Virus record (IMG/VR): IMGVR_UViG_3300042863_000853
Coordinates: 1-20,923 of that record
Strand: one strand, 5' to 3'
DNA length: 20,923 bases
Origin: a virus
Shown: positions 2,182-18,927 of the stretch, in pieces
How the letters are laid out: the number at the start of each line of letters is the position of its first letter
Numbering within the stretch: the first letter of the stretch is position 1
The notes under the pieces: generated by a model
Told to the model about the DNA's origin: nothing
Seen by the model: only the letters and a program-made list of their open reading frames with translations
The model's database searches: none
Made by a program: the position numbers and the translations under genes

Positions 2182-2366
2182 GAACTTTTACACTACACAA
2201 ACAGAAACCAGTCTTTCGTATCAAGAACACTCACCTCTCTGGCGAGTCAGTTAAACGCGAACTCATGGAAGCATTGGAAGCGGTATTAGACTGCTATGGT
2301 GATTCCGACTCTTTGATTATGATGCAGTGCCGGGCGGCTCTTGATCGCGCAAGGAGGAATCCATGA
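2178..2366 (+). CDS. hypothetical small phage protein (62 aa)
   Basis: The product is MRTFTLHKQKPVFRIKNTHL, then a helical C-terminal half with LMEALEAVLDCYGDSDSL and a final basic helix (CRAALDRARRNP). The pattern AL.A+L...GDS......CRAALD.AR resembles small helical phage proteins of unknown function. It is joined by ATGA overlaps to the genes on both sides, so it is probably co-translated with the helicase. No membrane segment, metal site or enzyme motif is seen. Confidence 0.68.
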   Translation: MRTFTLHKQKPVFRIKNTHLSGESVKRELMEALEAVLDCYGDSDSLIMMQCRAALDRARRNP

Positions 2367-3988
2367 ATATAAATGACCTCATGGCCGTAGTTGAGTGGTC
2401 GCAACCCATTCAACTCAATACAAAGCGAGGAGTTCGACTCCTCAAGAAAGCACCCATTGAACAGGCATTCTGGAAAGTTTATGCAGAAGATAAAGAACTA
2501 TTCAAAAAGCAGATGGGTGACGCTGGCATTCAACTCGGCAAGTTCCGCGATGAGTGGCAGTTAACTTGGTGGTCGGGAGATGATCTAAAATTTAAGCAGA
2601 TTATCGTAACCGATACTCAGGCCGAAGCTATTGCTGAATTAGATTTAGTTCCTCTGCTTCACCCCGAAGGCTTGTTAGAGTATCAGATTACCTCTGTCCA
2701 GATGGGCGTTGCCTCGATGAATAAGTATAATCGCGCCCTGCTTGGGCATTCAACGGGTGTTGGTAAAACATTCTGTGCTTTAGGTATTGCAAGAGAGTTA
2801 GGAAAACGTATTGCGGTCATCTGCCCCAAGCCGATTACCACAGACTGGCATCGTGCCGCGAAGATGATGGGTGTTGAGGTATTCGAGATTTGCGGGTGGG
2901 AGTTTTGTAAAACCGGAAAATCCAAAATCGGAAAATGGACTTGTGATTCTAAAAAGAAATTTGAATATCAACTCCCCGCTGATGTTCTTCTCGTATTCGA
3001 TGAGGTTCACAGAGGAAAAGGTGAAGCCACCCAAAACGCCTATCTTGTCAGGGATTCAGTAAATCAGAATATCCCCGCCATTGCCTTGTCTGCTACCATA
3101 GCGGATGATCCCACTAAGTTGTGGGCATTAGGTCAGTTCCTCGGTCTGCACCAAGGCGGCAAAGATTATTTCCGATTCCTCAGTCAAAACGGATGCAGGA
3201 AGACCCGATTCGGAATGCAGTTCACAGGCGGGCATTCAGTCCTTAAGAAACTCCATAGCCGCATCTACCCAGAGCGAGGCAATCGACTCAGGCACTCTGA
3301 TCTCGGTGATGCTTTCCCTGAGACTCTGATAAAGGCAAAGGCATTTGACATGGACAACGCCAAGAAGATTGCCAATGAATACGATGACTTGTGCAACCGA
3401 ATCGAGGAGTTGCGTATGCAGGAAAACTTCTCAGCCAATGTTTTGGCAGAACAGACTCGCGCTCGCCAAAGAATTGAAATGTTAAAAGCTCCCGCTGTAG
3501 CAGCAATGACACGCGATTTACTGGAAGAGGGTCATAGTATTTTCATTGCAGTCAACTACACCGAGAGTCGCCAATGGTTGATGGAAGAGTTGAAAACCGA
3601 TTGCGCTATCTATGGCGGACAGTCCGATATGGAACGCCGAGGCAAAATTGACTCGTTCCAGAATGATAAAAGCCGAGTCATAATTGGACAAATTCAAGCG
3701 TGTCGGGAAGGATTAAACCTGCACGATCTTAATGGTAATCACTCACGCGTTTCTCTAATAATGCCAAGTCCAAGCATTTACGACACCAAGCAGGTATTGG
3801 GTCGGGTGCATAGGTCAGGCGGGAAAACCAAATCAATCCAGTTTTTGGTATACGCAGCGGGTGTTCCTATCGAAGAAAATATCTGTGAGAAGCTGGATGT
3901 TAAACTGAAGAGACTCGATGTCTTAGCCGATGGTGAATGCGATCCAACGATTTCACTACTTCCAAAAGATGAAGAAAAACTAATCTAA
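2363..3988 (+). CDS. SNF2/DEAD-like superfamily 2 helicase (541 aa)
   Basis: An ATP-dependent SF2 helicase or translocase, most like phage SNF2-type proteins acting in DNA replication or recombination. Lobe 1 has Walker A GHSTGVGKT (128-136), the DEVH box (213-216) and motif III SAT (243-245). Lobe 2 has motif V around QACREGLNLHD (445-455) and motif VI QVLGRVHR (477-484). The set is complete, so the enzyme should be active. A 100-residue N-terminal region precedes the core. The start at 2363 overlaps the previous stop (ATGA). The gene carries palindromic site 2 near codon 82 and a perfect 7-bp-arm inverted repeat at 2427-2443. It ends before a strong terminator. The nuclease, SSB and ParB-like genes on the other strand complete a replication/recombination set. 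Confidence 0.93.
   Translation: MNINDLMAVVEWSQPIQLNTKRGVRLLKKAPIEQAFWKVYAEDKELFKKQMGDAGIQLGKFRDEWQLTWWSGDDLKFKQIIVTDTQAEAIAELDLVPLLHPEGLLEYQITSVQMGVASMNKYNRALLGHSTGVGKTFCALGIARELGKRIAVICPKPITTDWHRAAKMMGVEVFEICGWEFCKTGKSKIGKWTCDSKKKFEYQLPADVLLVFDEVHRGKGEATQNAYLVRDSVNQNIPAIALSATIADDPTKLWALGQFLGLHQGGKDYFRFLSQNGCRKTRFGMQFTGGHSVLKKLHSRIYPERGNRLRHSDLGDAFPETLIKAKAFDMDNAKKIANEYDDLCNRIEELRMQENFSANVLAEQTRARQRIEMLKAPAVAAMTRDLLEEGHSIFIAVNYTESRQWLMEELKTDCAIYGGQSDMERRGKIDSFQNDKSRVIIGQIQACREGLNLHDLNGNHSRVSLIMPSPSIYDTKQVLGRVHRSGGKTKSIQFLVYAAGVPIEENICEKLDVKLKRLDVLADGECDPTISLLPKDEEKLI
2601..2616. promoter_or_regulatory. palindromic site 2 (TTATCG-TAAC-CGATAC)
   Basis: A copy of the dispersed palindrome with one arm base changed. 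It lies inside the helicase gene (about codons 80-85), so if bound it acts like a stoperator or DNA-organising site rather than a promoter operator. Confidence 0.6.
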
Positions 3989-4007
3989 ATCCAGTTTCAC
4001 TCAAACT

Positions 4008-4510
4008 TAAAAACCAGATTGGAAGAAATTCCTTTCTGGTTTTTTTGTTTTCTAAACTAATCTGAAACTATTCAGAATATATTCTACTCGGAGATCAATG
4101 AATCTCCTGCGTTTCTGGCGGGGCAGAACCAGAGCGACAAGTCTCCCAAGAAATTTGGGAAAACTTGCCGAATGAATCATACGTTTCAGTATGGGTGTTG
4201 TCACCTTTCGCTTAACAATCCACGCCCAGCGGTCTTCCTTTACCTAGGCTAGTCTAATCTCGTTGACTAATTGCAAGTCGTCCCGAAGGACAGCATTAAG
4301 TTGGCAGGATAACAGTCTCGGCAGCCAGTCCAACTCCACTCCTTCACCAGTATTTAGCAGACTACTCTCGGTGCGTCCTACACGCATCCCCGCTGGCTAC
4401 ACGATCCAATGGTGGCAAAAAATAGGGCCTGTCGTAGCTTGCGGACTACAACAGACCCATTTTATTGACTCAAAATTGATCTCCAAAGTCCGCAAGAACT
4501 CGTATTGGAT
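4008..4510 (-). ncRNA. large structured noncoding RNA candidate (~500 nt)
   Basis: No convincing gene lies between 3989 and 4570. Read as - strand RNA, the region folds into a nested structure. A 13-bp closing helix joins 4475-4487 to 4087-4099. A 13-bp hairpin pairs 4446-4458 with 4425-4437, and its 8-nt loop can pair with 4488-4496 (9-bp pseudoknot). A 7-bp helix (4390-4396 with 4226-4232) encloses hairpins at 4371-4387, 4299-4335, 4280-4291 (C-UUCG-G loop) and 4250-4269. Further hairpins are at 4194-4205, 4178-4193, 4138-4167 and 4114-4133. Interior G.U pairs in the two 13-bp helices are C.A mismatches on the + strand, which fixes the strand. A promoter (4517-4544) and the terminator at 4011-4042 bracket it. 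It does not match tmRNA, RNase P, group I intron or 6S RNA as I know them. It recalls phage ornate RNAs such as GOLLD or ROOL in size and setting, but I cannot assign it. Confidence 0.75.
4011..4046 (+). terminator. rho-independent terminator, usable on both strands
   Basis: The stem AAACCAGA (4011-4018) pairs with TCTGGTTT (4035-4042). Inside it GGAA (4021-4024) pairs with TTCC (4029-4032) around a GAAA loop. On the + strand a run of seven T (4040-4046) follows, ending the helicase operon. On the - strand five T follow (4013-4009), so it can also end the convergent RNA. Confidence 0.88.
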
Positions 4511-4515
4511 ACGAG
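4499..4515. promoter_or_regulatory. perfect inverted repeat at the ncRNA start site
   Basis: CTCGTAT-TGG-ATACGAG has 7-bp arms and lies directly downstream of the -10 element, covering the expected start of the - strand RNA (~4510). It may be an operator of a second type, or a 5' hairpin if transcription begins further upstream. It differs in sequence from the dispersed palindrome. Confidence 0.4.
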
Positions 4516-4516
4516 G

Positions 4517-4544
4517 AATCTAACAGAGCAAAGATCAATGTCAA
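4517..4544 (-). promoter_or_regulatory. sigma70-like promoter for the ncRNA
   Basis: TTGACA (4544-4539), 16-bp spacer, TAGATT (4522-4517). The hexamers and spacing are identical to the early-operon promoter at 8468-8495. Palindromic site 3 begins 9 bp upstream of the -35. The expected start is near 4510, inside an inverted repeat. Confidence 0.65.
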
Positions 4545-4553
4545 ATACTTTTT

Positions 4554-4569
4554 TTATCGGTTACGATAA
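4554..4569. promoter_or_regulatory. palindromic site 3 (TTATCG-GTTA-CGATAA)
   Basis: Both 6-bp arms are perfect. It sits between the stop of the 93-aa gene (4571) and the -35 of the ncRNA promoter. A bound protein here could activate or block that promoter, or stop transcription arriving from the early operon. Confidence 0.7.
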
Positions 4570-4570
4570 T

Positions 4571-4852
4571 TCAGCTAATGATCCGAGAAGGTTCCTCTTT
4601 CTCCTCTTCCTTATCAAAACGCTTTCGGAATTGCGCTTGAGTATAGAAAAGGAATGCCAGTTCCAAGTAGCGGATAGCTTCAAATCCCTCACCCTTACGG
4701 GATTCTGATTTGATAACCATCATGCTTGCTGTATGAAGAAGGCTTGCCATTGCATGGACTCGTTCGTTTAGTGTCTCGTCTGCTGATTTGATGAAAGTGA
4801 AAGCTTCCATTACAGATTTCGAGGTTTCGTTTTGTGGTGTTTGTTCTGACAT
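4571..4852 (-). CDS. small helical protein, possible Acb2-like cyclic-oligonucleotide sponge (93 aa)
   Basis: The start at 4852 (MSEQTPQNETSKSVMEAF) is chosen over a longer reading to 4957. It follows an AAAATAATT leader two bases after the upstream stop. Residues 18-76 share a pattern that I recall from Acb2/Vs.4-like (DUF7681) proteins: FTF at 18-20, R31, a long hydrophobic helix to ~47, SR at 51-52, then LE.A (63-66), A73 and R76. Those proteins are ~90-aa helical oligomers that bind cyclic nucleotides and block CBASS defence. The length matches and the LE.A......A..R spacing is exact, but the tail is more acidic and typical aromatics (WANA) are replaced by FYTQ. This is a similarity noted by eye; an unrelated helical protein is quite possible. 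Confidence 0.45.
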   Translation of the reverse strand: MSEQTPQNETSKSVMEAFTFIKSADETLNERVHAMASLLHTASMMVIKSESRKGEGFEAIRYLELAFLFYTQAQFRKRFDKEEEKEEPSRIIS

Positions 4853-4854
4853 AA

Positions 4855-5025
4855 TTATTTTTGTTTTAGGTAAATGTGATTGTTTCTGAATGCTCTTAAT
4901 GAATTTACATGAGATTTGATTCTTTTTCTCCAATATAAATCTGATCTCCATGACCAACGCTTATTGATCTCCAACTGCAATAAGGATTGAATGTTTATAC
5001 TTACTTCGATGGGAATCTCTTTCAT
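4855..5025 (-). CDS. hypothetical basic small protein (56 aa)
   Basis: The ATG at 5025-5023 overlaps the stop of the ParB-like gene (ATGA), and the stop lies two bases before the start of the 93-aa gene. The product begins MKEIPIEVSINIQSLLQLEI and continues into a strongly basic, aromatic stretch (NKRWSWRSDLYWRKRIKSHV). It may bind nucleic acid, but no fold is recognised. Support comes from the tight operon fit rather than from similarity. Confidence 0.5.
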   Translation of the reverse strand: MKEIPIEVSINIQSLLQLEINKRWSWRSDLYWRKRIKSHVNSLRAFRNNHIYLKQK

Positions 5026-6008
5026 TGTTCTTTCAAGAACCTCAACCATGCGTTCTCTGCTGGATCAAACCATGACTTGTCGCCAAGGTCGATGAGTAGT
5101 TGGTGTTCTTGCACTTCATCTGGCATACTACGGAGGACTTCCGAGTTAGAGAAGTTGCCAACATTGAGGAGAAGGAAGCGATGACCAGATGGTTTGTCGT
5201 CTTTACCTTGCTCACTACGCACTCGGTTCCTTACCTCAGTAGAGGATAGTTTCTCGTTCTTCGCGGCCTCAAGAAGTTCACTTTGCTTCTTAGCGTTGGT
5301 CTTCTCATCCCCGAAGTTCGCGTTTCCAATCTCTCGATAGACTGTGAACGGAAGCATTGGATCACGTTTAGCAGCGGGGAATGCTTTGCAAGCACGGGCA
5401 TAACCTGACACGGTAGGGTAACTTTTCTTAAAATTAGAACAGAGTTGATTGACTACATCGTCATGTCCAGCCGCTTCCAAGGCTACCACTGAGTCACCAA
5501 TGATCCATTGCGCTCCGCTTTCCAAGGTAAGACCGAAGGCAAATGCTGCCACCCAGTCTTTCATATCTACATCACCTTTGGGCACACACTGAGTCATTCC
5601 CGCGCCAATGTCGAACTTCTTAGTGAATGAAGAGAGTTCCAATCCATTCTTAACGCTCTCCACAAGGGCCAAGGATTCATTGACTGGTTCTTCGATTGGC
5701 TCATCTTTGGTCAGCTCAACCTCCGCTTCGACTACAGGATTGTCCAAGCGTTCCTCTTCCATTTCCTCGGCCATTTCCAAGTCAGCACTCATCCTCTCAT
5801 ACATTTCCAGCATCTCATCTGGTGCATCATCCTCAAGGTATTCGTTCTTCTTGAGTTTCGCCCATGCTTTTTTGATATGGGTTTCAGTGATGTTGATGCC
5901 CGGCCATTCGGTTTTGACATACTCACCCATCTGAGTGAGGTATTTTGACAGAGGGACAAGAACGCCCTCTTGAGTTGGACTGAATAGTTCTAATTCTTTC
6001 TTTTTCAT
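5022..6008 (-). CDS. ParB/KorB-like DNA-binding protein (328 aa)
   Basis: Residues 1-60 contain a short helical region (ITETHIKKAWAKLKKNEYL). Residues 61-115 are very acidic and probably disordered. Residues ~150-266 have W-I-I-G-D (168-172), an amphipathic stretch, KKSYPTVSGYARACKAFPAAKRD (194-216), a FTVYREI strand or helix and LLEAAKNEKLSSTEVRNRV (245-263). This resembles the helical DNA-binding region of KorB/ParB-type and related phage proteins: W.IGD, then SY.T...YA..A+.FP...R, then LL..A.....S..E.R. The likely role is sequence-specific DNA binding, and it is the best local candidate to bind the nine palindromes (inference). The start follows CACTAAA; the stop overlaps the next gene. 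Confidence 0.55.
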   Translation of the reverse strand: MKKKELELFSPTQEGVLVPLSKYLTQMGEYVKTEWPGINITETHIKKAWAKLKKNEYLEDDAPDEMLEMYERMSADLEMAEEMEEERLDNPVVEAEVELTKDEPIEEPVNESLALVESVKNGLELSSFTKKFDIGAGMTQCVPKGDVDMKDWVAAFAFGLTLESGAQWIIGDSVVALEAAGHDDVVNQLCSNFKKSYPTVSGYARACKAFPAAKRDPMLPFTVYREIGNANFGDEKTNAKKQSELLEAAKNEKLSSTEVRNRVRSEQGKDDKPSGHRFLLLNVGNFSNSEVLRSMPDEVQEHQLLIDLGDKSWFDPAENAWLRFLKEQ

Positions 6009-6047: not shown

Positions 6048-6869
6048 TTAATATGGAATCTCGTCTACGTCTTCTTCAATAGGAGCATCGAGGTTGAAGT
6101 CTATCGCGGCCTGCTCTACGCACTTGGCGAATGGAGTTGTGAATCCCTTCTCCAAGTAATACTGGTAGAGTTTAGTGAGTGCAGGTTTTCCAATCTCTCC
6201 AAGCTTCTTGTCCTTCTGTGATCCACTTGGAACGATGGCAGATGCCCAATCTTTGGGATCAAGTTCTGCTGGTTTAGGCTCCTCCACTTTAGGTTCAGAC
6301 TTTGGTTCTGACTTGGAGATAGAGATACCTTTCCGGTTAGCTTCGATGAAGATTGACGAGACATACGCCCGAAGAGTCTCTTCATCTGTGACTTTGCCGA
6401 GATAGGCCATGCGAACCAAGGAGTCGATATAGAGGTGAGTCTCTACGATTTGATCGAGTGCCTGCTCTGGATTATCGGTTACGATACTCTTTGGTGTTGA
6501 TGCAACACGGGGCGGTTCCTCATCTTGCTTTTCAAACTCAACCTTACCTGTAGCAGTTACCTTGATGATGTCACGATCCACTTTCCCGTTCTTACCATCG
6601 TAGGTTTCATGCTCAAGTGATACACCTGTCATGCCATGCTTGCCTCGGACTGAAGAGAGCGTTACTACATTTCCTTTCAATGATTGCTCTTGATTATTGT
6701 TGAAGAACTTGAGTCCGTAAGTTTGCCCGTCGATCTCAATGTCTCCACCTTGGATCACGAACTCGCCTTTCGGGCCAGTAAATGTCTTCGGTTCCCACAA
6801 TTTAGTGACCTTTCCAGTCACTCGCTTGATGATGTCTTTCTGTTCGATTCCTTCTAATTGGTTACTCAT
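6048..6869 (-). CDS. OB-fold single-stranded DNA-binding protein-like (273 aa)
   Basis: Residues ~10-115 have a beta-rich pattern typical of an OB fold (GKVTKLWEPKTF, GEFVIQGGDIEIDGQTYGLK, NVVTLSSVRGK, RDIIKVTATGKVEFE). A Pro/Glu/Lys-rich linker follows and then a helical C-terminal part. The protein ends EEDVDEIPY, closely resembling the acidic tip of bacterial SSB (DDDIPF) that recruits repair proteins. The likely role is to coat ssDNA during phage replication or recombination alongside the helicase and RecB-like nuclease. The start at 6869 (MSNQLEGIEQ) is chosen over a 13-residue longer reading because it forms an ATGA overlap with the 36-aa gene. Palindromic site 4 lies inside. Confidence 0.6.
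   Translation of the reverse strand: MSNQLEGIEQKDIIKRVTGKVTKLWEPKTFTGPKGEFVIQGGDIEIDGQTYGLKFFNNNQEQSLKGNVVTLSSVRGKHGMTGVSLEHETYDGKNGKVDRDIIKVTATGKVEFEKQDEEPPRVASTPKSIVTDNPEQALDQIVETHLYIDSLVRMAYLGKVTDEETLRAYVSSIFIEANRKGISISKSEPKSEPKVEEPKPAELDPKDWASAIVPSGSQKDKKLGEIGKPALTKLYQYYLEKGFTTPFAKCVEQAAIDFNLDAPIEEDVDEIPY
6472..6487. promoter_or_regulatory. palindromic site 4 (TTATCG-GTTA-CGATAC)
   Basis: A copy of the dispersed palindrome inside the SSB-like gene. Its spacer is identical to that of site 3; one base of the right arm differs. Confidence 0.6.
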
Positions 6870-6976
6870 TTTAATATTAATGTCATTGTTGCGGATAATG
6901 CTCCACAAATTATACCTGCTGTGAATCCTAATATAATACCTATTAAGGCAAATTTGGTTGTAGGATTAATTCTCAT
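6866..6976 (-). CDS. 36-aa single-span membrane protein
   Basis: This gene was read directly. The ATG at 6976 overlaps the upstream stop (TAATG) and the TGA overlaps the next ATG (6869). The product is MRINPTTK followed by one continuous hydrophobic, Gly-rich segment of about 26 residues (FALIGIILGFTAGIICGALS and on) and a final Lys. It should insert once in the inner membrane. The short basic N-terminus and glycine motifs would permit helix packing or oligomerisation. Its place in an early replication operon argues against a classical holin. Possible roles are a replication membrane anchor, superinfection exclusion or a host-directed toxin-like peptide; none is shown. Confidence 0.6.
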   Translation of the reverse strand: MRINPTTKFALIGIILGFTAGIICGALSATMTLILK

Positions 6977-7209
6977 TACCAGTTGTCAATATTTACTTCC
7001 AGTTCTTTGATTTCTTTAGTTGCTTTGTCGTAGATGCGATAGAAGTCCGCTAACCCACCGAGGGAGATTCGGATTTCCCATCGACTGATCGGATCAACAG
7101 TTTCGTCTATCCTTGCTGGTGGTTGATTTTCCATCCAGTCTAATGCTTCTTGCTTGTTCTCTTCTGGCAGCATCGCCAGTCTTTCAATAGGTGGTAGTCT
7201 CTTACTCAT
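6976..7209 (-). CDS. hypothetical protein (77 aa)
   Basis: The product begins MSKRLPPIERLAMLPEENKQ, with a helical acidic N-terminal half. It continues into a likely beta-rich or mixed C-terminus (RWEIRISLGGLADFYRIYDK, then KEIKELEVNIDNW). No known domain is recognised. The start at 7209 follows ACAAAACTA and overlaps the end of the RecB-like gene by 8 bases; its stop overlaps the 36-aa gene. The coupling suggests a function linked to the nuclease or SSB, but nothing in the sequence proves it. Confidence 0.65.
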   Translation of the reverse strand: MSKRLPPIERLAMLPEENKQEALDWMENQPPARIDETVDPISRWEIRISLGGLADFYRIYDKATKEIKELEVNIDNW

Positions 7210-8071
7210 TAGTTTTGTATGTTAATTTATAGTAGTTGCAGAAGGGTGCTACTGAGCAATAACGCTCGCAACGAATATCCCCTCCGTTTCGTTTTTCGAT
7301 TGAGTGTTTCGCGCCATAGGTAGGAAGTAAGTTTTGTGCTTCCTCGAATGTCTCGCACACTTTTGCTGCTCGTTTGTTTCCGTCTTTCTTGATCGCAAAG
7401 GTATCTGGTTTCGCCCATCTTTCCTTTGGTTCACAGATAGGAATGGTATCATCTGGCATTACCGCCGCTGCTTGGTGAAGTTTGATTCTCTCCGCTGCGT
7501 ATCGGACTACTTCGCAGGCATCCCAGAGTGGAATGTCAACGATGTGAACCGCACACTGTGGATACTCTTTGTCAAACTCAGCCTTGCTCGCCTGCCAATC
7601 ACGAAGGATAGCGACGATCTGACCTTTCTTGACTTGGTATCCATACTCTCTCCAGAGCATGGCATTTAGATTAATCTGTGCTTCCCACTCTGCTTTTCCT
7701 CCGAGAAGGAATGAGAAGACTGAGGTTACTTTGAAGTCTGAGATAGTTTGATTGCCTGTCTCATACAAGTCAGTCTGACCTGTGAGTGTCCAACCATTGA
7801 TCTCTTTGTAAAGACGCTTCTCAGTCATCTCTTCTTCCCCGCCTGCCAATTCAAGAACCTTGTGAACTGACTGACCGAGCAATGCCCACACCCTGTCGGA
7901 TGCGTCTTCTACAATCTGGTCGTTATACCTTTTCTTAAGTTGGTTGATCTTCGGTGGGCCGATTAAAGTAGTCACCGATATATCTGCCTTCCTTTGTCCT
8001 GCCATATAACCATCATGGGACAAGGCACGAAACATTGGAGCCGGAAGATCGTGATTATTCGTTATCGTCAT
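7202..8071 (-). CDS. RecB/Cas4-like PD-(D/E)XK nuclease (289 aa)
   Basis: Catalytic residues fit the RecB/Cas4-type PD-(D/E)XK nuclease: H70 in GQSVHKVLE, D101 in TGQTDLYE, the D-F-K triad at 112-114 (SDFKVTS) and Q132 in AQINLNAML. Four Cys are placed as in iron-sulfur versions: C213 (PICEPKERW) and a C-terminal cluster C268, C272, C278 (RCERYCSVAPFC). The protein probably degrades or resects DNA ends, working with the SNF2-like helicase and SSB-like protein in phage recombination. Metal and Fe-S binding are inferred from residue placement. The ATG at 8071 overlaps the preceding gene by 17 bases. Length is normal for the family. Confidence 0.85.
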   Translation of the reverse strand: MTITNNHDLPAPMFRALSHDGYMAGQRKADISVTTLIGPPKINQLKKRYNDQIVEDASDRVWALLGQSVHKVLELAGGEEEMTEKRLYKEINGWTLTGQTDLYETGNQTISDFKVTSVFSFLLGGKAEWEAQINLNAMLWREYGYQVKKGQIVAILRDWQASKAEFDKEYPQCAVHIVDIPLWDACEVVRYAAERIKLHQAAAVMPDDTIPICEPKERWAKPDTFAIKKDGNKRAAKVCETFEEAQNLLPTYGAKHSIEKRNGGDIRCERYCSVAPFCNYYKLTYKTNE

Positions 8072-8210
8072 AGTTTCTCGGATTAGGGTCTATGCCATCC
8101 TGCATATCGCGGCGAGCGCAAGCATAGAGAAAGTCTTCCTCTCTCTCTTCCTCAATCTCACCGCTAAGATCGTAGGGTTCTTCTTCCCCATCGTTACAAG
8201 CGAGACTCAT
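8055..8210 (-). CDS. hypothetical acidic small protein (51 aa)
   Basis: This gene was read directly. ATG at 8210 overlaps the stop of the 72-aa gene (TAATG), and the frame ends in TAA at 8055, inside the start of the nuclease gene. The product begins MSLACNDGEEEPYDLSGEIE and continues with a run of Glu/Arg, LYACARRDMQDGIDPNP and an acidic end. It is strongly acidic, so a DNA mimic or a small accessory protein is conceivable. No family is recognised. Confidence 0.6.
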   Translation of the reverse strand: MSLACNDGEEEPYDLSGEIEEEREEDFLYACARRDMQDGIDPNPRNYDDNE

Positions 8211-8428
8211 TATTCGGTAACTGCTGGAAGTTTCTCTTCAAACGAAGCTGCCAGAATTTCCGATACACCGCGAAGGTGATCGCCAGTTTTAACCAGAGTT
8301 GCTGCACTGGTCAGGTTGCCGAGGTCGAACTTGCCATCCGCTGCTGTAGCGGTAATCAGGCGAAGGTAGATTTCTTTTTGAAGCTCACTTGGAGCGGTTG
8401 TTCTTGTAGGTGTAGGTTTATCTTTCAT
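8210..8428 (-). CDS. hypothetical protein, first gene of the early operon (72 aa)
   Basis: The frame is open from 8461, but the ATG at 8428 (MKDKPTPTRTTAPSEL) is preferred. The promoter at 8468-8495 would start transcription near 8461, and the leader AAAACTCTA before 8428 matches other starts here. The product has a Thr/Pro-rich N-terminus and a helical C-terminal part (LQKEIYLRLITATAAD, then SAATLVKTGDHLRGVSEILA). No family is recognised. It is the promoter-proximal gene of a nine-gene operon running to 4571. Confidence 0.65.
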   Translation of the reverse strand: MKDKPTPTRTTAPSELQKEIYLRLITATAADGKFDLGNLTSAATLVKTGDHLRGVSEILAASFEEKLPAVTE

Positions 8429-8467
8429 TAGAGTTTTATGGACGGATGTTGTGCCGTTCACAAGGCC

Positions 8468-8495
8468 AATCTACACACTCCGATTATCGTGTCAA
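8468..8495 (-). promoter_or_regulatory. sigma70-like promoter of the early operon
   Basis: TTGACA (8495-8490), 16-bp spacer, TAGATT (8473-8468). This is the same pair and spacing as the ncRNA promoter at 4517-4544. The start is expected near 8461, giving a ~33-nt leader to the ATG at 8428. The first spacer bases (CGATAA) form a half-site of the palindrome, and a full copy lies 22 bp upstream. Confidence 0.7.
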
Positions 8496-8641: not shown

Positions 8642-11600
8642 TTATTTATTCGGAAGCTTGTTCAAAAATATATTGTAGTTCTTTTGATATTGGCTTTCGA
8701 GCTTCTGAATCTCATCAAATTTTTCTTTGCTCACTTTTTCTTTTAGCCATTTCTTGAATGCTGTTTTCTCCGCTTGATCCATTGGCCCACTTCCAAGTCG
8801 CAATGGTTGACGATTCCTTGCGCCCGATTGCATACTTTGAATTGCGTTCGCTCGCTCACTTTTCGGAAGGGAATTCAAATACTCTTTTGCATATGCTACC
8901 GCTGCTCCGGGTTCACCGCGCTGGAGATAACTTGCAATCTCTCGATTGATTGGTGTCATTTTACCGGGGGCAATGTCCATCGGTCGTTTAGTCCTGTATT
9001 CCAACCCTGCACTTGATGCCCATCTGCGAGCATACTTATTGATCGAAGCAACCTCTCTTCTGAACATTTCTTCTGCAACTGTTGGAGCTTTGGAATATCC
9101 CAATCCACTCGCGGCGGTTTGATATAAGCGTTGTGAAACTCGGTATCCAGAGAATGTTCTGTTAAGGTAGTTGTTAATATCTCCAAGTGTAATCTTACCT
9201 TGGTCTGCTGCATTCTGAATAAATGTTGCAGTCTCTTTGAAGATACTGAGAGCAGGAGGATCGAGGGGATTCTTTACTCGTTCACGATCCTGCCAGTCCA
9301 TAAAGAATTGGCCGTAATTTCCTATGAGTCCAAGCGCACCCATGCCAATCAGATTATACCATGCGCGTTCAAGGGATAGATAGAGTTCATCGTCATCCTC
9401 GTCATCTTCAAATGCCTTAATAATATCTTCGTAACTCGGCCCCTTCATCAGCACACCGAAAAGCATATCACGCAAACGGAGGATTACTTCACCACCAACA
9501 TATGAAGCTCCAAGCCACATCATCACAGGAATAATAGTGAGTGCCTTGCCTTCGGCTTTCGTTACTTTTTTAGGTATCTCATCCAATGTAATCTTACGAT
9601 TGTCACCAAGCTCTTTTGCTTCTGCCAACCTCAAACGATACAGCAGTTGGCGAGTTTGGTCTGGAAGTTGAAGGGTTTCATTCTTGTTGGTTACTGCCCT
9701 CCAAGCTGGCTCAAATGTATTCTTCCAGCTTTGACGCATTACTTGAGTCGAGAACTTCTGATACTTAAACAAGAACCTTCCGATAGGTGTATCTGTAAAG
9801 ATTGGAGTTTGAGCAATCGTGTAGCTTCCTTGTGAGATGTTGGCGAAGTAGCGGAGTAACTTGTCAGTCTCTGGGCCAGTGCCTTGTTCAACGATTAGTT
9901 TATCAGCATCAATGTTGTTTCGGTTCAACCATGTTAATGCTCGTTTAGAAAATGAACTATTTGGATTCTTCGATAGACTTGAAAGTGTTTTCCTCAAGAA
10001 TGATTTTCCAATAATCATACTTTGAGTTCTGACCATTTGCTCTACTGGTGTGAATCCAGACCACTTCAACAAGAAGTCAGTTGTTTTCTGTCCTGCTTTA
10101 GCGAGTCCACTTGATTCAAGAACAACTTGATGGTCGCCAACAATGTTCATCAAGTCGCGGGATACGATACCTTTTTCTCTCGCGTCTTTAAGTTCTCTTC
10201 CAAGTTTGCGAAGTTCTGCAAAGGATGAAACGTAACTTGAAAGCGCACCCGGTTGTCCAACCATCGCATTGAGGGTTGTTCCACCAAAGAAGTTCAGCAT
10301 GGATGAGGCAGGATTTCCAAGCTGAAGTCCAGATGACCAGATGTTCAGCGTTGCCATTCCTTTTACAATCGGATCATTTGGATAAGCTCCTTCGACTCGT
10401 TCTTGTGCTGATGTGATATAATCAATTGTCCTGCGATCTCTGGTTGATTCCCTTGATCTATCCCAAAGGGTCTTTGAGTTCTCTCCAAGTTTCTGACCGA
10501 ATTGCTCAATTCGACTGCTATGTTGCGCCCATCGTGCAACGTAATCTGTCATCACTTGCGTAGAGTAATCGTAAAGTTCTTCTGGGAATGCTTGTCCACG
10601 GGCGGCTTCGATTCCAGAAAAGTAATCGTTCTGACTTCCTGTTCCTTGGTAGTCGGAGATAAATACCTCTGCTTCCTCTGGAGTTTGAATCCTTCCAGAC
10701 TTCATCAATGCTTCTACAATTTCGTTGTATTCCTTCTGATATTTGTCTGGTTCCATCAATGCTCTCTTATACTCAGGCTTGAAAACTCGCGGCCAAAACT
10801 TTTCTACCCTTCCGATTGGTCGCCATCTTTGTAGCCCTTTATCAAAAACTTTGATTCCGATCTTTTGGTTTTCATTTCCAGATTCTTCACCAAACTTTTG
10901 CCAAGCAGTAACAATCTTCTGAGTGATTGGATTTAGTTCATCAAAAAACTCAGCGGTGTCTCGCTTATTCTCTTGTGCCGCAAAGAACCTTTTAACTTCT
11001 TCATCAATCTTTTTCTTGGTTGATTTAGATTGTTTAGAATACTCATCAAATGCTGGCAGTAGAATCTTATTAGCGAATCCAAGTCGGCGTTGAGCTTGAT
11101 CGTAGTAATCATCAATAGCTGTAGCCAGCTTGGTAAATTTAGCCCTACGCAACCTATCACTTGCCGATTCAAAAATACCACGCACAAAAGCGAAGTTCTT
11201 AATATGACTCTCAATCTTATTGTTGATTGGCATATTATCTTCTTTGCCAATATCCAGACCTTGAGCCATTGCTTCGGTGATTGTCTCTGCTTCTGGTTCT
11301 ATTGGGGTTTGTTCTGGTATTGACTCTAGCAGTTTTGCTTTTTCTGTTGGAAGAGTAAAATCGGTTTTTGATGGAGAAACAGTAGTTATCGAATCAAGCC
11401 AAATCGCAAGCGTTTCATCTGGAGAAAAGTTTTCGGATATTGCATTCCAAAGTTTTTTTAATTTTGCTCCAATTTCTGTAAAAAATTTATCAACTAAAGA
11501 TTTAGGTTTTTCTCTTGTCGTTGCCCATTTTGCAACCTCATCGCCAAACCATTCATCAAATGAACTCCGATATTGTTCCCATTCTGCAACCCTGAGTTCT

Positions 11601-14221
11601 TTAGGAAATGGAGCTTTAGGATCAAGCCAATCTGCATCAGTCATCCATTCCCATATTCTACGTTGATCAGCAATAGACGGAACTCCATCCTTACTATACT
11701 TTAATGCAAACCATTTATTATATTGTGCAACGATTTCATCTTTGGTTTTTTGATCTGCATTAGCAAATTCTATTTCTTGTATTGCATGACCTATTTCATG
11801 GGACATTGCAGATGGCGTTGCTTTTGGAGATACCGCTACCGTTTTATTTGCCTTTGACCACATTCCAGCAACATTTTTTCCAGATAATGCTTTTTGTGCA
11901 TTTTTCTTGTTAGCTAGATAAACAAGTTGATCTAATCTTGTGGCCTTTCCAGACTTTCTTTTATCTTCCCAATTTTTTTCTATTGCATTAAGTGACTCCT
12001 CCATAGTTATCACTTTAACTCCAGCGGACTTTAACCCCGGAAATAAATCTATTAAAGCATTTCCATATCCAATCGGGTCAAGAACGGGGGATTGTGGTTT
12101 TATTTTTGGTTTTGCTTTACCTGCGGACGTAGTAGCTGGTGTTATCGTTTCCGATACTGCGGGTTGGTAAACATACAAATCACCTTGCTTGGTGTAGCCT
12201 TCTGGCAGTGTGATGTTGTAGGCATCTACAGCAGCAGCAGATACTGGATTACTGTCTGAAATAGCTCTATTTATCTCCCCGTAGTGATCTGATGCACCTC
12301 TTTTAATGTCTGCCTCAGTTGGTTGAGACACACGTTCAAATGTGCTTTTAGTATCCTTAATAGCAGCAGCTTTTGATTTGTAAGTTTGACCTCCACTAAA
12401 ACCAAATGTTTGCCCTGTTTTCGCTAACTCAAAGTCTTGTTTTGCTTGTTCAATAACTGATTTGTGGCCTTGAGTTCCACGCTCCTCTGGAGTCATCTGC
12501 TCTGGTTTATTCACATCACGCTGGATAGTTACAACCTCTGCGGCGGGTGCTTCTGTTACAGCAGGAGTCTCGGCTACGGGTGCGGGAATAGCTCTACCAA
12601 CTTGCTTGCCTTGCTGCATCGCCATGATGTCTTCAGTGGGATAACCAAAGATCGTGGATTTATTTCTCTCTTCAAGATAGGCTTTAGATTCCTCAACTGA
12701 CATCCCGCTTGGTTTGGAAGCAGGAGTCTCTTTAACCACTGGTGCAATTTCAGCTACTGGAGTTATCTCTTTACCAACGGAATCGAGGATTACATTTTGT
12801 GCTGTTTCAATGTCTGGCAGTCCAATTTGAATATCTTCTTTTTGTCCATTTACGATTCGTTCAGCCCTAAATGTTCCATTAGAAGATTGCTGGACAGAAT
12901 ACCTTGTGTCTCCATCATAGGCAACTCCAGACATTTCAAGCTCGTCTTTAAATTCTTGGTTTACTACTGGTGTAGATACGGGTGTTGCAGCTTCTGCGAC
13001 TGCTACTTCAGTTGGGGTAACTTCGGTAGGTGCTGGAGCGGCAACTGGTGTGACTGGAGCGGCAACTTCGGGTGCAGCAATCTCTTTGGCTAACTCAATC
13101 TGTTGCTTCTCTGCTTCTACTACTGGATCGTTAGAATCTACTATGCTATCAACTTGTCCTTGTGCAGCGGCAAGGATAGCTTCTTTCTCTTTAAGTTCTA
13201 ACTTGAGCTTCTGTGCAACGGGATCAGTTGATTCAATAGCCGATAGCACTTGCTTTGCATCGGCAATTTCTTGCTCAAGTTTCTGCTTGTTTGCCAGCAC
13301 AGCCTTGCCTTGAGGATTATCGTTACCGATAAAAAGGTTCTCAGCTTCTTTGTTTGCGCTCTCAGTAATCTTAGCTTCTGCAATTTGCTCTGGTGTAAAT
13401 GGTGCGGCGATAACAGTAGCCGCCGCGCCTGCGCCACCACCGATCAATGCTTCACCTACTGCTTGTTTGGCATTAACCTGTATTCCTTTCTTGGTTTCTA
13501 CAGTCTCGCCAACTTGTTGAGTCAAGGACTGCAAGCCTTCTGGAATACCTTCTCCAATGAAGGAAGCGGCAAGGCGTTTAGAAAATGAACCAACTGCCTT
13601 CTCTCCACCCGGAAGATATTTGGCTCCAAAAGCATTTAGTAAACCAGAACCAGCAGCGGTTGTTATAGCATAAGCCATATCCTCATCAGTTGGTTCTGTG
13701 TAACCATTATTCTTGGCTCGTTCTAAAGCAACTGGCCCCACGATCTGCGCTGCTTCAAACAATGCTGGCCCTGCAAATGAACCTGCCGCTGCGCCAGCAA
13801 CCCCAGTAGCGGGACTTATCAATGCACCAAGACCACCGCCAGCTACTGCGCCCGCAAGACGAGTTCCAATGCTGCCAAGAATTTGACCAGTCTGTTCTGC
13901 AATAGCTCTTGGAGCATACTGAGGAGCGAAGCCAGCAACTTGAAACTCACCCTCTTTAGGAGCCATGAAGCGTTCACCAGCGGAAACATAACCTTCTGGT
14001 TCTTGAATCGCACCCTTTAATGCTGCGCCCACTGCGGGAAATCCAGCAACTTGTGCCGTCTCACCAATAGCTTCAAGTGGTTGACCAAACGATTGCTTGA
14101 GTGCTGCTGGAAGCTGAGAGATTTCTTGACCAATAGAAGTGCCTACTGGTTTTTGTGTTTCTTCATCAAGAAATGTGATCTTTCTTCCCGTTGGTTCTTC
14201 ATCTAAGAATGTAATAGCCAT
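8642..14221 (-). CDS. giant polyvalent virion protein with zincin (HEIGH) domain (1859 aa)
   Basis: By length and position this is the large internal (ejected) virion protein of a podovirus, analogous to T7 gp16, and of the large polyvalent protein type. The N-terminus has ITFLDEE twice (3-9 and 15-21), then Gly/Ala-rich hydrophobic segments (residues ~100-290) and a Pro/Ala/Glu-rich linker. Around 808-812 is HEIGH in SHEIGHAIQE, the zinc-metallopeptidase signature, followed downstream by acidic helices (WFGDEVAKW) that could give the third ligand. The C-terminal half is largely helical, with hydrophobic stretches (PVMMWLGASYVGG; LIGMGALGLIG). It may cross the host envelope during DNA ejection, with the peptidase cutting a host or phage protein; that role is inferred. 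No lysozyme-like site was seen. Its start overlaps the upstream stop (TAATG). Confidence 0.8.
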   Translation of the reverse strand: MAITFLDEEPTGRKITFLDEETQKPVGTSIGQEISQLPAALKQSFGQPLEAIGETAQVAGFPAVGAALKGAIQEPEGYVSAGERFMAPKEGEFQVAGFAPQYAPRAIAEQTGQILGSIGTRLAGAVAGGGLGALISPATGVAGAAAGSFAGPALFEAAQIVGPVALERAKNNGYTEPTDEDMAYAITTAAGSGLLNAFGAKYLPGGEKAVGSFSKRLAASFIGEGIPEGLQSLTQQVGETVETKKGIQVNAKQAVGEALIGGGAGAAATVIAAPFTPEQIAEAKITESANKEAENLFIGNDNPQGKAVLANKQKLEQEIADAKQVLSAIESTDPVAQKLKLELKEKEAILAAAQGQVDSIVDSNDPVVEAEKQQIELAKEIAAPEVAAPVTPVAAPAPTEVTPTEVAVAEAATPVSTPVVNQEFKDELEMSGVAYDGDTRYSVQQSSNGTFRAERIVNGQKEDIQIGLPDIETAQNVILDSVGKEITPVAEIAPVVKETPASKPSGMSVEESKAYLEERNKSTIFGYPTEDIMAMQQGKQVGRAIPAPVAETPAVTEAPAAEVVTIQRDVNKPEQMTPEERGTQGHKSVIEQAKQDFELAKTGQTFGFSGGQTYKSKAAAIKDTKSTFERVSQPTEADIKRGASDHYGEINRAISDSNPVSAAAVDAYNITLPEGYTKQGDLYVYQPAVSETITPATTSAGKAKPKIKPQSPVLDPIGYGNALIDLFPGLKSAGVKVITMEESLNAIEKNWEDKRKSGKATRLDQLVYLANKKNAQKALSGKNVAGMWSKANKTVAVSPKATPSAMSHEIGHAIQEIEFANADQKTKDEIVAQYNKWFALKYSKDGVPSIADQRRIWEWMTDADWLDPKAPFPKELRVAEWEQYRSSFDEWFGDEVAKWATTREKPKSLVDKFFTEIGAKLKKLWNAISENFSPDETLAIWLDSITTVSPSKTDFTLPTEKAKLLESIPEQTPIEPEAETITEAMAQGLDIGKEDNMPINNKIESHIKNFAFVRGIFESASDRLRRAKFTKLATAIDDYYDQAQRRLGFANKILLPAFDEYSKQSKSTKKKIDEEVKRFFAAQENKRDTAEFFDELNPITQKIVTAWQKFGEESGNENQKIGIKVFDKGLQRWRPIGRVEKFWPRVFKPEYKRALMEPDKYQKEYNEIVEALMKSGRIQTPEEAEVFISDYQGTGSQNDYFSGIEAARGQAFPEELYDYSTQVMTDYVARWAQHSSRIEQFGQKLGENSKTLWDRSRESTRDRRTIDYITSAQERVEGAYPNDPIVKGMATLNIWSSGLQLGNPASSMLNFFGGTTLNAMVGQPGALSSYVSSFAELRKLGRELKDAREKGIVSRDLMNIVGDHQVVLESSGLAKAGQKTTDFLLKWSGFTPVEQMVRTQSMIIGKSFLRKTLSSLSKNPNSSFSKRALTWLNRNNIDADKLIVEQGTGPETDKLLRYFANISQGSYTIAQTPIFTDTPIGRFLFKYQKFSTQVMRQSWKNTFEPAWRAVTNKNETLQLPDQTRQLLYRLRLAEAKELGDNRKITLDEIPKKVTKAEGKALTIIPVMMWLGASYVGGEVILRLRDMLFGVLMKGPSYEDIIKAFEDDEDDDELYLSLERAWYNLIGMGALGLIGNYGQFFMDWQDRERVKNPLDPPALSIFKETATFIQNAADQGKITLGDINNYLNRTFSGYRVSQRLYQTAASGLGYSKAPTVAEEMFRREVASINKYARRWASSAGLEYRTKRPMDIAPGKMTPINREIASYLQRGEPGAAVAYAKEYLNSLPKSERANAIQSMQSGARNRQPLRLGSGPMDQAEKTAFKKWLKEKVSKEKFDEIQKLESQYQKNYNIFLNKLPNK
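12142..12157. promoter_or_regulatory. palindromic site 6 (TTATCG-TTTC-CGATAC)
   Basis: A copy of the dispersed palindrome inside the 1859-aa gene. Its spacer is identical to that of site 5. Confidence 0.6.
13317..13332. promoter_or_regulatory. palindromic site 7 (TTATCG-TTAC-CGATAA)
   Basis: Perfect arms, inside the 1859-aa gene. It is identical over all 16 bases to site 8, which is almost 5 kb away. Confidence 0.65.
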
Positions 14222-15690
14222 TAGTCGATCCTTGCTTTACGACCATTTATAGTAACAATTGTTCCCTTTGGCAAGCCAGAAGCCTCTGCTTCTGCTACAG
14301 ATTTAAATGAAGTATTTGGCGCAGGAATCATTTTAGTTCCCTCTTTAGTTGGGCCAGATGGTGCAATGCGAACGAATGCGGAATTACTATTGCCTGCCCT
14401 CAATTGCTGTAGCCTACTTGGAGAGTTTTGAATTGTTTTAAATGCAGCAACTTGACCTTCAGTTAATTCTATTACTGGAGTTTTTTCGTTGTTTGGATCA
14501 AGATTCTTTTGATACAAGATAACACTTTTAGGAACTTTTCTTGTTTCTCCAGTTTCTTCATCAGTAACTTCTTTTACTCCCGTTTCTGTATATGTTGTGT
14601 TGAATACACCACCATTTTCTTTCAAAAACTTCCCAAGTTTTCCTTGGCTCAATTCAGTAGCGGCAGAAGTAAATAAAGTTTGATAGGCATCAATATCATT
14701 TTTGTTTGTTCCAAAAGTAACTGAGTCGGATTTTGCGCCAGCAGTCATTGACTTTGCTTCAGTTGTAGGCTCAAGAACTATTCCAGTAATATTATTTCCA
14801 ATTACAGCACTTTGCTCAGGTTTAAGAGGATAAAAATTCTTTCCTAATTGCGGCTTAGTTTTTTCAAAGTTTTTATCTGAATCAAAAACAATGGACAAGT
14901 CTTGCATGACTGCCATCTTGCCGTCTTCTGGAAGTGAATTGTATTGATTTGAAAATTGTTTAAATGAAGCAACTTGTTCTGGAGGTGCTGGATTCTTGAT
15001 AGAATTTAAAAGAGCCTTCTTGTATTGTGGCGATTGAACAGACGCAGCAATATTTTCTACTGCCTTCAATTGCGGCCCCTTATATGTCATTTCGGAATCT
15101 CCACCATTTTCTGGAAGTGGGACTTCTACAACTTGTGGAGAACCGCCTTGCATTGCTGGCATTCCCGTTTGCTGTTGAGATGTAGGTTGAGATACTGCTG
15201 TGGTATCAGAAATAACATTTTGATCTTCATATACCACATTAGGTTCTTGACCTAACAATGTCATTTTAGCCCGTTCCTCTGGAGTATAAACCTGTCTACT
15301 ATCCATACCTTGACTGGCTTTTTCAGTGGTGCGTGTATTGTAAGCTTCAATCTGACTCTTGCGTAGATAGTCATCAGCAAATTGTTTAGACATTGATGCC
15401 ATCTGCTGATTCATGTTTTGGATAAATGGATTGTTCGATGCTCCAAATTGGAGTTGAGCATTCATCAAATCACCATATCCCTCACTCAGTTTTCCTTGGC
15501 CGATTTTATCAAACGCACTTTTATATGTGGCTTGCAATACTGGTAGCACAGCTTGAGCTTGGCTTTGCGCTTCTTTCTGTGCCAACGCTGCACCTACATT
15601 CTGACCAAGTTTAGCCAAAGATTCTCCAACCCATGCGGTAGATTCCGATGAGCGTTTGGTTCCCTGCATTATGAGTTCTGCGATAGACAT
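14221..15690 (-). CDS. internal virion protein-like (489 aa)
   Basis: The product starts MSIAELIMQGTKRSSESTAW and has a long Ala/Gln-rich helical N-terminal half (LAQKEAQSQAQAVLPVLQAT). A low-complexity middle (SQPTSQQQTG) and a mixed C-terminal half follow, ending in an SH3-like short stretch (EASGLPKGTIVTINGRKARID). By order, between a ~350-aa Ala-rich protein and the giant protein, it corresponds to T7 gp15, an ejected core protein. I see no enzyme motif. It lies 3 bases after the upstream gene and overlaps the giant gene by TAATG, which fits coordinated synthesis. The C-terminal residues resemble the last strands of KOW/SH3-type modules, but this is weak. Confidence 0.6.
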   Translation of the reverse strand: MSIAELIMQGTKRSSESTAWVGESLAKLGQNVGAALAQKEAQSQAQAVLPVLQATYKSAFDKIGQGKLSEGYGDLMNAQLQFGASNNPFIQNMNQQMASMSKQFADDYLRKSQIEAYNTRTTEKASQGMDSRQVYTPEERAKMTLLGQEPNVVYEDQNVISDTTAVSQPTSQQQTGMPAMQGGSPQVVEVPLPENGGDSEMTYKGPQLKAVENIAASVQSPQYKKALLNSIKNPAPPEQVASFKQFSNQYNSLPEDGKMAVMQDLSIVFDSDKNFEKTKPQLGKNFYPLKPEQSAVIGNNITGIVLEPTTEAKSMTAGAKSDSVTFGTNKNDIDAYQTLFTSAATELSQGKLGKFLKENGGVFNTTYTETGVKEVTDEETGETRKVPKSVILYQKNLDPNNEKTPVIELTEGQVAAFKTIQNSPSRLQQLRAGNSNSAFVRIAPSGPTKEGTKMIPAPNTSFKSVAEAEASGLPKGTIVTINGRKARID

Positions 15691-15693
15691 AAA

Positions 15694-16752
15694 TTATGCT
15701 CCTGTTCCTGATCCGTAACTAAAATTACTGCCAGCACCATAAGTTGCAGGCCCATAAGCTTCTTCGTAATTAAATCCACCAGCATATCCGCCTCCTCCTC
15801 CGCCACCCATTCCTCCACCTTGCATTGCTCCGATTTGTCTGGTTGCATTGGCGTATCCAGACAACGCACCAGAGGTAGCTTGTCCAATGTCAGATACACC
15901 TTGGCCTACTGCTTGTTGTGCGGCGTAACTTGCGGCGGCATTCTCTTTGTTTGCTCCATAGATTTGAGAAGCCAATCCAGATTGTGCATTGTAGATATTA
16001 GAGAACATATCAGATGTGAGTTTGGCTTTTTGCAATCCGATTTCTGCTTGAGCTGTTCCATAGCCAAGTTGTAGTCTTCCTACATCCAATGGTTCTGCTG
16101 TGAATGCCCTTGCTAATTGCTGCCAGTTTTGCGCTGTGCCTTGGACTGATGGGATTGCCGCGAGTCCTTGTCTTTGAATATCAAGAGAGGTTAGTCCAAG
16201 GTTACGGGCAAATTGTCCCTGCGCTGCTTGGAATCCTCCAGCTTGTCCTGCCGTTGCTGGATTGAACCCTGCGCCTGCACTCTCAGCGACATTACGCATG
16301 ATCTGTTCTTTAACATCTTGTGGCACTTCTCCCTTAAGGTATTGAGAAATAACATCCATTGCTTGCCCAATTTGTGTTTGAGCTTGTTGGCGTTGTTGTG
16401 CTGCTCCGGGCTGGAATGTTTCAAGTTGTTGACGATAGTAATCTGAAATCTGACCAGCATCGCCTATCATTGCTCCAAGGTTATACTCTGGAGCTTTGAC
16501 TTCACTGATCATTCCTTGGACTTGTTGCTGTCCTTTTTCAAATCCTTTTACAGCTTTTCTCTGTTGCTTTTTAAATTGTCCTGCCGCTGCACCTTGAGCT
16601 TTCTTTGCACGATCTGCTGCTGACATTGAGATAGCCGCCGACCCTGCCGCCGCACCTACAGCAACTACACCAGCAGCAATAGCAAATGCGCTCGTATGAA
16701 ACATCATTGAATGTTTATCGTTGCCTAAGTGGTCTGGTAAAAGAAATCTCAT
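15694..16752 (-). CDS. Ala/Gly-rich internal virion protein-like (352 aa)
   Basis: A hydrophobic Ala-rich segment (residues ~21-44, FAIAAGVVAVGAAAGSAAIS) is followed by basic helices (FKKQQRKAVKGFEKGQQQVQ). Long Gln/Ala helices come next, and a Gly-rich end contains a run of seven Gly. The layout of one membrane-active segment, a helical coil and a Gly-rich tail fits T7 gp14-like ejected proteins that form a pore in the host envelope. Alternatives are a DNA-injection pilot or a tail scaffold. The ATG at 16752 overlaps the upstream stop (ATGA); a later start (MMFHTSAF) is also possible. A candidate promoter lies at 16818-16846, inside the preceding gene. Confidence 0.6.
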   Translation of the reverse strand: MRFLLPDHLGNDKHSMMFHTSAFAIAAGVVAVGAAAGSAAISMSAADRAKKAQGAAAGQFKKQQRKAVKGFEKGQQQVQGMISEVKAPEYNLGAMIGDAGQISDYYRQQLETFQPGAAQQRQQAQTQIGQAMDVISQYLKGEVPQDVKEQIMRNVAESAGAGFNPATAGQAGGFQAAQGQFARNLGLTSLDIQRQGLAAIPSVQGTAQNWQQLARAFTAEPLDVGRLQLGYGTAQAEIGLQKAKLTSDMFSNIYNAQSGLASQIYGANKENAAASYAAQQAVGQGVSDIGQATSGALSGYANATRQIGAMQGGGMGGGGGGGYAGGFNYEEAYGPATYGAGSNFSYGSGTGA

Positions 16753-17237
16753 TTGATTAAGTCAGTTCGGTTATGCCGCCATTTTTGAACCCTTGGGTCT
16801 TCTTTGGCGATATGGGGATTAAAGTCTCTTGAAGTGATCGTGTCAATAATTTCGTCTGGATCAGTCAAGTCTGTGACATGGCAAGTAATCCAAATTGTAT
16901 CCTTGTGAGTAGCAAGCATACGCCTTGTTCCTGCTTCTGTAATGCCGCTGTAGCCTGTTTTGTAGCGGTGGGCGGGGATGCCATGATACCAGACAGTCAC
17001 ATCGCCTTTCATGATGAAAAACGGATGCGTAGTCAGGTGGAGTAGAGTTGTGAGAATCGTATCCTTCGGCATATAGATTTCCCGAATATACATACCCGGA
17101 GTAAACCTATGAATCAACGGACATTCCCGTGGAGGTAACTTTAGAATCTCCAAATCCATCAAGTTGAGTTCGTAGTCAGGATCACCATATCCAACTACAT
17201 TCCTCGCATCAATCTTGTCTGGAATAGTTAAAGTCAT
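16749..17237 (-). CDS. cupin-like small phage protein (162 aa)
   Basis: Residues ~45-135 have a cupin-like beta-barrel pattern: GMYIREIYMPKDTIL, LLHLTTHPFFIMKGDVTVWY, then GYSGITEAGTRRML and a closing TIWITCHVTD. The set REI.MP, H..T.HPF.I..G, TG....GTRR and W.T.H recurs in small phage proteins encoded near tail and internal-virion genes. The His residues could bind metal as in cupins, but no activity is known. It may be a minor virion or assembly protein. The gene overlaps the adaptor gene (ATGA at 17237) and the 352-aa gene (ATGA at 16752), so it is firmly in the virion operon. Confidence 0.65.
   Translation of the reverse strand: MTLTIPDKIDARNVVGYGDPDYELNLMDLEILKLPPRECPLIHRFTPGMYIREIYMPKDTILTTLLHLTTHPFFIMKGDVTVWYHGIPAHRYKTGYSGITEAGTRRMLATHKDTIWITCHVTDLTDPDEIIDTITSRDFNPHIAKEDPRVQKWRHNRTDLIK
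16818..16846 (-). promoter_or_regulatory. possible internal promoter ahead of the internal-virion genes
   Basis: TTGACA (16846-16841), 17-bp spacer, TTTAAT (16823-16818; five of six consensus bases). It lies in the 3' half of the cupin-like gene, ~66 bases before the 352-aa gene. The first bases after the -35, CACGAT, resemble those of the early promoter (TTGACACGATAA at 8495). Confidence 0.35.
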
Positions 17238-18196: not shown

Positions 18197-18199
18197 AGG

Positions 18200-18215
18200 T
18201 TATCGTTACCGATAA
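18200..18215. promoter_or_regulatory. palindromic site 8 (TTATCG-TTAC-CGATAA)
   Basis: Perfect arms. It fills almost the whole gap between the stop of the 52-aa gene (18216) and the ATG at 18196. A bound protein could block the leader or act as a stoperator; no -35/-10 pair is beside it. Confidence 0.7.
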
Positions 18216-18374
18216 TTACTTTTGGTAACCTTGCTTTGGAGTGCCAGCGGTCGTATAGATGCTTGGCTTCTTAGCACCAAGGTTGGGCATATTCCCCATA
18301 CCTTCACGGATGCTTCCGCGAGTTGGCGATCCACCAGAAACAAGCTTTGGGTCGGTTCCTTTTAGTGTTGTCAT
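18216..18374 (-). CDS. hypothetical small protein (52 aa)
   Basis: This short gene was read directly. It begins MTTLKGTDPKLVSGGSPTRG after an AACTAAATAT leader, continues SIREGMGNMPNLGAKKP and ends TAGTPKQGYQK. It is basic and rich in Gly, Pro and Thr, so likely flexible. It fills the otherwise empty space between the 172-aa and 320-aa genes, directly before palindromic site 8. A small linker or decoration protein is conceivable; no family is recognised. Confidence 0.6.
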   Translation of the reverse strand: MTTLKGTDPKLVSGGSPTRGSIREGMGNMPNLGAKKPSIYTTAGTPKQGYQK

Positions 18375-18403
18375 ATATTTAGTTTTCTTTATGGCTTTGT
18401 TTA

Positions 18404-18922: not shown

Positions 18923-18927
18923 TTGAT

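Follow-up and report, generated by a model that had tools for sequence, protein, structure and literature searches.

The window analysed here, a 20,923-nucleotide stretch of viral DNA that makes up a virus record of its own, carries a 93-aa reading frame, cand93, that closes a replication/recombination module (Table 1), and raises the question of whether this small protein is a divergent nucleotide sponge of the Acb2 type. An earlier note on the same DNA had proposed so from a motif, its spacing and the protein length. The motif is present in the sequence in all its parts (FTF at 18–20, SR at 51–52 and L63-E64-x-A66-(6)-A73-xx-R76), and the length is that of Acb2 proteins (93 aa vs 88–94 aa). 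The spacing agrees only in part, with 12 residues from SR to LE against 10 in siphophage Acb2. The aromatics are changed, as had been claimed: WANA is not kept in cand93, and F69/Y70 replace WA.

Table 1. Position of cand93 and of the surrounding features in the window
Feature	Positions	Strand	Remarks
541-aa DNA helicase	2363–3988	plus	phrog_62; convergent with the module
Non-coding element, 582 nt	3989–4570	minus	between cand93 and the helicase
Terminator-like stem	4425–4458	minus	14 pairs then TATTTTTT; downstream of cand93
cand93	4571–4852	minus	93 aa, predicted three-helix protein; ATG start
cand93 residues 18–77	4622–4801	minus	colinear with the hairpin of Acb2/Tad1 over FTF, SR and LE.A......A..R
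p328	5022–6008	minus	conserved; always immediately upstream of cand93; no Pfam match
p286	6048–6869	minus	conserved; N-terminus resembles an OB-fold/SSB, by eye only; not confidently matched to a family
p77	6976–7209	minus	small gene, in 18 of 47 relatives
exo289	7202–8071	minus	PD-(D/E)XK / Cas4-type exonuclease; phrog_2139, E 5.7e-52
p51 and p83	8055–8461	minus	two small genes, variable, that begin the module on its upstream side
Promoter-like TTGACA-16-TAGATT	8468–8495	minus	consensus match only; just upstream of p83

cand93 is a previously unnamed core phage protein family

Relatives of cand93 numbered 41 in a protein scan of IMG/VR and 47 in an alignment-based scan, with 73–90% identity, almost all over the full length, and more than half of the columns of the family alignment are invariant. 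When cand93 was compared with its relatives, dN was 0.08–0.16 and dS 0.6–2.1; it is therefore a real gene under purifying selection. Twelve positions (F18, N29, E30, V32, S37, L39, H40, M45, E55, G56, Y70 and Q74) are invariant in 23 diverse members, and mostly differ from those of Acb2. More distant homologues, 34–45% identical (L093, L096/L152, L154, L099, L100, L101 and L157), came from divergent genomes in which p328 is 51–60% identical. Nothing significant was retrieved for cand93 from Pfam, PHROG, PDB-sequence or isolate-phage searches, and a host search of 84,980 genomes with cand93 and with p328 gave no match. Weak matches to PHROG 37732 (E 0.03–0.09) and to the Pfam families DUF1101, MapZ and HAD_PNKP were taken as chance. 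In SPbeta-type phages, tblastn gave a match (E 0.7) that was rejected because it runs antisense to the annotated genes. Folds of the MazG and FliS kind were dropped, as neither motif nor profile supported them.

cand93 is tightly linked to p328 in a replication/recombination module

On the minus strand the module runs p83, p51, exo289, p77, p286, p328, cand93 and then the terminator-like stem, and it is syntenic across the 47 cand93 loci wherever the contig reaches. As a guard against circularity, loci were also sought via p328 or the exonuclease instead of cand93. Of the loci found through p328 that have 600 b or more on the downstream side, 35/35 carried cand93 directly after p328, and 36/36 with L099 included; downstream of the exonuclease it was present in all 39 loci having at least 4.5 kb on that side. 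In the deep branches L093, L099, L100 and L101 the gap between cand93 and p328 is a few nucleotides. Given this strict linkage cand93 behaves as a core gene, and the linkage to p328 is itself evidence of co-expression, not of partnership. cand93 is about as conserved as the core genes around it: median identity is 80% for cand93, 84% for p328, 80% for p286 and 88% for the exonuclease, while the variable p83 reaches 58%. p328 is strongly conserved although it lacks a family match. Inspection by eye suggests a helix-turn-helix of the ParB/KorB DNA-binding kind in the middle of the protein (W..GD...Y.TVSGYAR..R.F...R....F..YREIGNA...VR..V).

The earlier note had assigned cand93 to an early operon. 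The gene order does not show this: cand93 is the last gene of a minus-strand run that also includes the long genes at 8642–20922. Within this run, the promoter-like site before p83 (8495–8468) and the terminator-like stem (4458–4425) could bound a sub-operon.

We tentatively favour, over a divergent sponge, the reading that cand93 serves the replication/recombination module as a core accessory protein and is perhaps a remote hairpin relative. It would be a helical hairpin of small size, probably oligomeric, that is produced alongside the exonuclease and the p328 and p286 proteins, and would most likely act by binding p328 or the DNA machinery of the module. It may also share a very remote ancestry with the Acb2/Tad1 hairpin, with a ligand pocket that would not be that of Acb2. 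We infer the oligomer, the partner and the role, the last from the neighbouring genes only. Against this accessory role stands a faint similarity to Acb2, which is unexplained if cand93 is unrelated.

The resemblance to Acb2 exceeds null expectations but not database significance

That similarity is at the centre of the competing reading, in which cand93 would be a divergent Acb2-type sponge, an oligomeric hairpin with a remodelled pocket where the aromatic F69/Y70 replace WA. The family model PF24729 counts against it, having no cand93 match at E up to 5–10 (37 + 14 members, 9 virus records; cut-off 27 bits, positive control T4 Vs.4 71.4 bits). Phage records and IMG/VR also supplied sequences for Acb2 alignments of our own. 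The siphophage Acb2-like set was first found with a consensus query and then read from the records, and its standing as PF24729 members rests on this retrieval and on how closely it resembles T4 Vs.4 and two PDB entries, Acb2 homolog 43 and Tad1. With an HMM made from siphophage Acb2 only, p26, a proven Acb2, scores no higher than cand93. A low score therefore does not exclude membership, a point in favour of a sponge.

Profile comparison with hhalign aligned the whole hairpin of cand93 with siphophage Acb2, pairing FTF with FTY and LE.A with LEEA but needing a gap of two residues on the way from SR to LE. The score of the cand93 profile A5 was 23.5, above 300 column shuffles (mean 10.5, sd 2.1, maximum 17.5) and above 55 other protein segments of the same phages (maximum 15.6), in support of a sponge. 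The cand93 profiles nevertheless reached P 0.001–0.005 and a probability of 7–25% against Acb2; the profile similarity over the hairpin stands above the nulls and below database significance. With a deeper Acb2 profile of 91 sequences the cand93 score falls to 18.9 (7%) whereas the T4 Vs.4 control rises to 89%; the distant subclade alone aligned over 16 columns with no full-length signal, and T4-type Vs.4 profiles gave no alignment signal with cand93 (P 0.09). All three results weigh against a sponge.

Single-sequence scores gave a similar picture. On 75 non-redundant Acb2-like proteins the A5 HMM of cand93 averaged 3.6 bits (maximum 14.6), against −0.5 on shuffled and −0.7 on reversed sequences, while 101 HMMs of other proteins of the same phages averaged −0.83 on the Acb2-like set, with a highest mean of 0.54 and a maximum of 8.5 bits. 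In the reciprocal direction, the siphophage Acb2 HMM placed the cand93 homologue L157 (9.8 bits) among T4-type proteins, between T4 Vs.4 (13.1) and Klebsiella Vs.4 (8.4). Both observations argue for a sponge. As judged from these profiles, the resemblance is real as a pattern, beyond the shuffle and real-protein nulls, and below blind-search significance.

The same scores bear on chance, that is, on cand93 being a small helical phage protein of whatever function, without kinship to Acb2, in which an amphipathic hairpin matches the Acb2 spacing by accident. Extrapolation from the hhalign P of ~1e-3 (per comparison) and the HMMER P of ~2e-6 (best of 91 sequences) gives E ~10 or more for a blind search of Pfam or of all phage proteins, and such per-comparison P-values would not stand up if 25,000 families were searched blindly. 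Besides, DUF1101 and MapZ beat PF24729 in single-member E-values, and an ORF unrelated to Acb2, from a fetched phage genome, reached 15.9 bits with the same A5 HMM. We consider chance rather unlikely, if slightly likelier than the sponge. Against chance, the similarity extends through the whole family, stays colinear for ~60 residues and does not appear in the reversed, shuffled and real-segment nulls. If cand93 is not a sponge, it shows how easily a short helical hairpin can be mistaken by eye for Acb2, while remaining the founder of a core phage protein family that had no name.

The predicted helix plan agrees with Acb2 while the key residues do not

AlphaFold2 predicted, with moderate confidence, an all-helical cand93 with helices at 6–19, 26–48 and 53–79 (pLDDT 74), and adding the distant homologues brought no gain in confidence (75 to 74). 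Acb2 has been described as a short helix followed by two long ones (PMC12043709). The modelled plan fits this description, as a sponge would, yet the plan is common. Foldseek against PDB and viral models, followed by VIA re-alignment of the cand93 model, returned generic helical matches and no Acb2 chain; this counts against a sponge, although absence from these matches does not exclude an Acb2 fold.

In T4 Vs.4, cGAMP is held by Y8, H11, K23, R79 and F82, and the hexamer is broken by mutations at L29, A66, A73 and A77; A77I, which came from a loss-of-function screen, destroys the hexamer and kills function (PMC10097602). With the register set by LE.A, the cand93 equivalent of A77 is Tyr70, invariant in 23/23 diverse members, while the equivalents of A66 and A73 (A59 and A66) are mostly small. 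Because T4 and cand93 profiles do not align directly, the ligand residues were mapped via siphophage Acb2; conserved equivalents of K23 and R79 were absent, and position 20 varies among F, Y and V. Nor do cand93 members keep the WANA motif or the conserved His and Arg that mark siphophage Acb2. Together with the tyrosine at A77, this speaks against a sponge. The conserved polar residues N29, E30, H40, E55, Y70 and Q74 point instead to a putative interface other than that of Acb2.

We did not file cand93 as Acb2 because two defining features, when tested, were not found. As for the divergent member that had been proposed, a faint pattern and a helix plan survived the nulls, whereas a PF24729 match, Acb2 structure matches and an alanine at the A77 position were missing. 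An Acb2-type sponge thus appears unlikely to us, and its strongest form, in which cand93 founds a deeply divergent Acb2/Tad1 branch of core, p328-linked nucleotide sponges with an invariant-aromatic pocket unlike known sponges, is improbable. Were cand93 a sponge, a widespread uncultured phage group would have built its defence against nucleotide-signalling immunity firmly into the replication module, and current PF24729 models would be capturing far too little of their superfamily.

A probable structured RNA element lies next to cand93

The non-coding element beside cand93 has homologues in other loci of the group (L024:6290-6868, L030, L025, L013, L018, L011, L032, L023:7457-8032, L034, L006, L050, L045 and L046). 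In several relatives it is conserved above the adjacent proteins, with 94–97% identity where cand93 is 77–85% identical. It carries a promoter-like TTGACA box that is invariant, and two parts that covary, a terminator-like stem and a multi-branched domain. Twenty of the 130 predicted pairs changed on both sides, compared with 7.8 in shuffles (0/500 reaching this value) and 1–7 in slid controls. Rfam, tRNA/tmRNA and isolate-phage searches gave no match, and the 14 IMG/VR contigs that contain the core motif all belong to this phage group. The element is probably an unreported structured phage RNA, and perhaps a more novel feature than cand93.

Some relatives (L014, L015, L016, L020, L009; L001, L003) have only one or both ends of the element (~166 and ~65 nt) around other sequence, or a gap of ~75 nt to the helicase. 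The middle domain is therefore variably present, like a cassette. The hexamers and spacing found before p83 (TTGACA-16-TAGATT, 8495–8468) recur on the same strand at 4544–4517, at the head of the element, a pairing of promoter-like sites that suggests co-regulation.

Comparison with known systems

The nearest known system is Acb2/Vs.4 (PF24729 Acb2_Tad1_hairpin; T4 Vs.4 7UQ2, Pseudomonas phage p26 8H2J). It has in common with cand93 the length, the predicted helix plan, the aromatic F18/F20, SR before the last helix and LE.A. cand93 differs in having no family-model match, Tyr at A77, two more residues between SR and LE, and no WANA, His or Arg, and in being a core gene tied to p328. T4 Vs.4, found in 1213 records, is itself widespread within its phage group, and core status therefore does not exclude a counter-defence role. 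Tad1 (Thoeris anti-defence 1) has a C-terminal helical hairpin with SRE...VEEA.MW and belongs by name to the same Pfam hairpin family. Its N-terminal antiparallel beta-sheet (PMC12043709) has no counterpart in the 93 aa of cand93, predicted to be all-helical. In cyanophage S-2L (L055:121-324) we observed an unannotated reading frame for an Acb2-like protein, flanked by genes for a tail protein and for tail assembly.

Among siphophage Acb2-like proteins, the best scores with the cand93 HMM were those of Gordonia phage Remus gp51 (14.6 bits) and Lactococcus phage 1706 orf70 (13.6 bits). cand93 shares with these proteins a colinear LxxxFsf ... re..ai..LeeA; identity is low, and their conserved YHP, IR, REK and WANA are not kept. 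In agreement with a sponge, 1706 orf70 also adjoins a module, one of exonuclease/annealing/helicase type.
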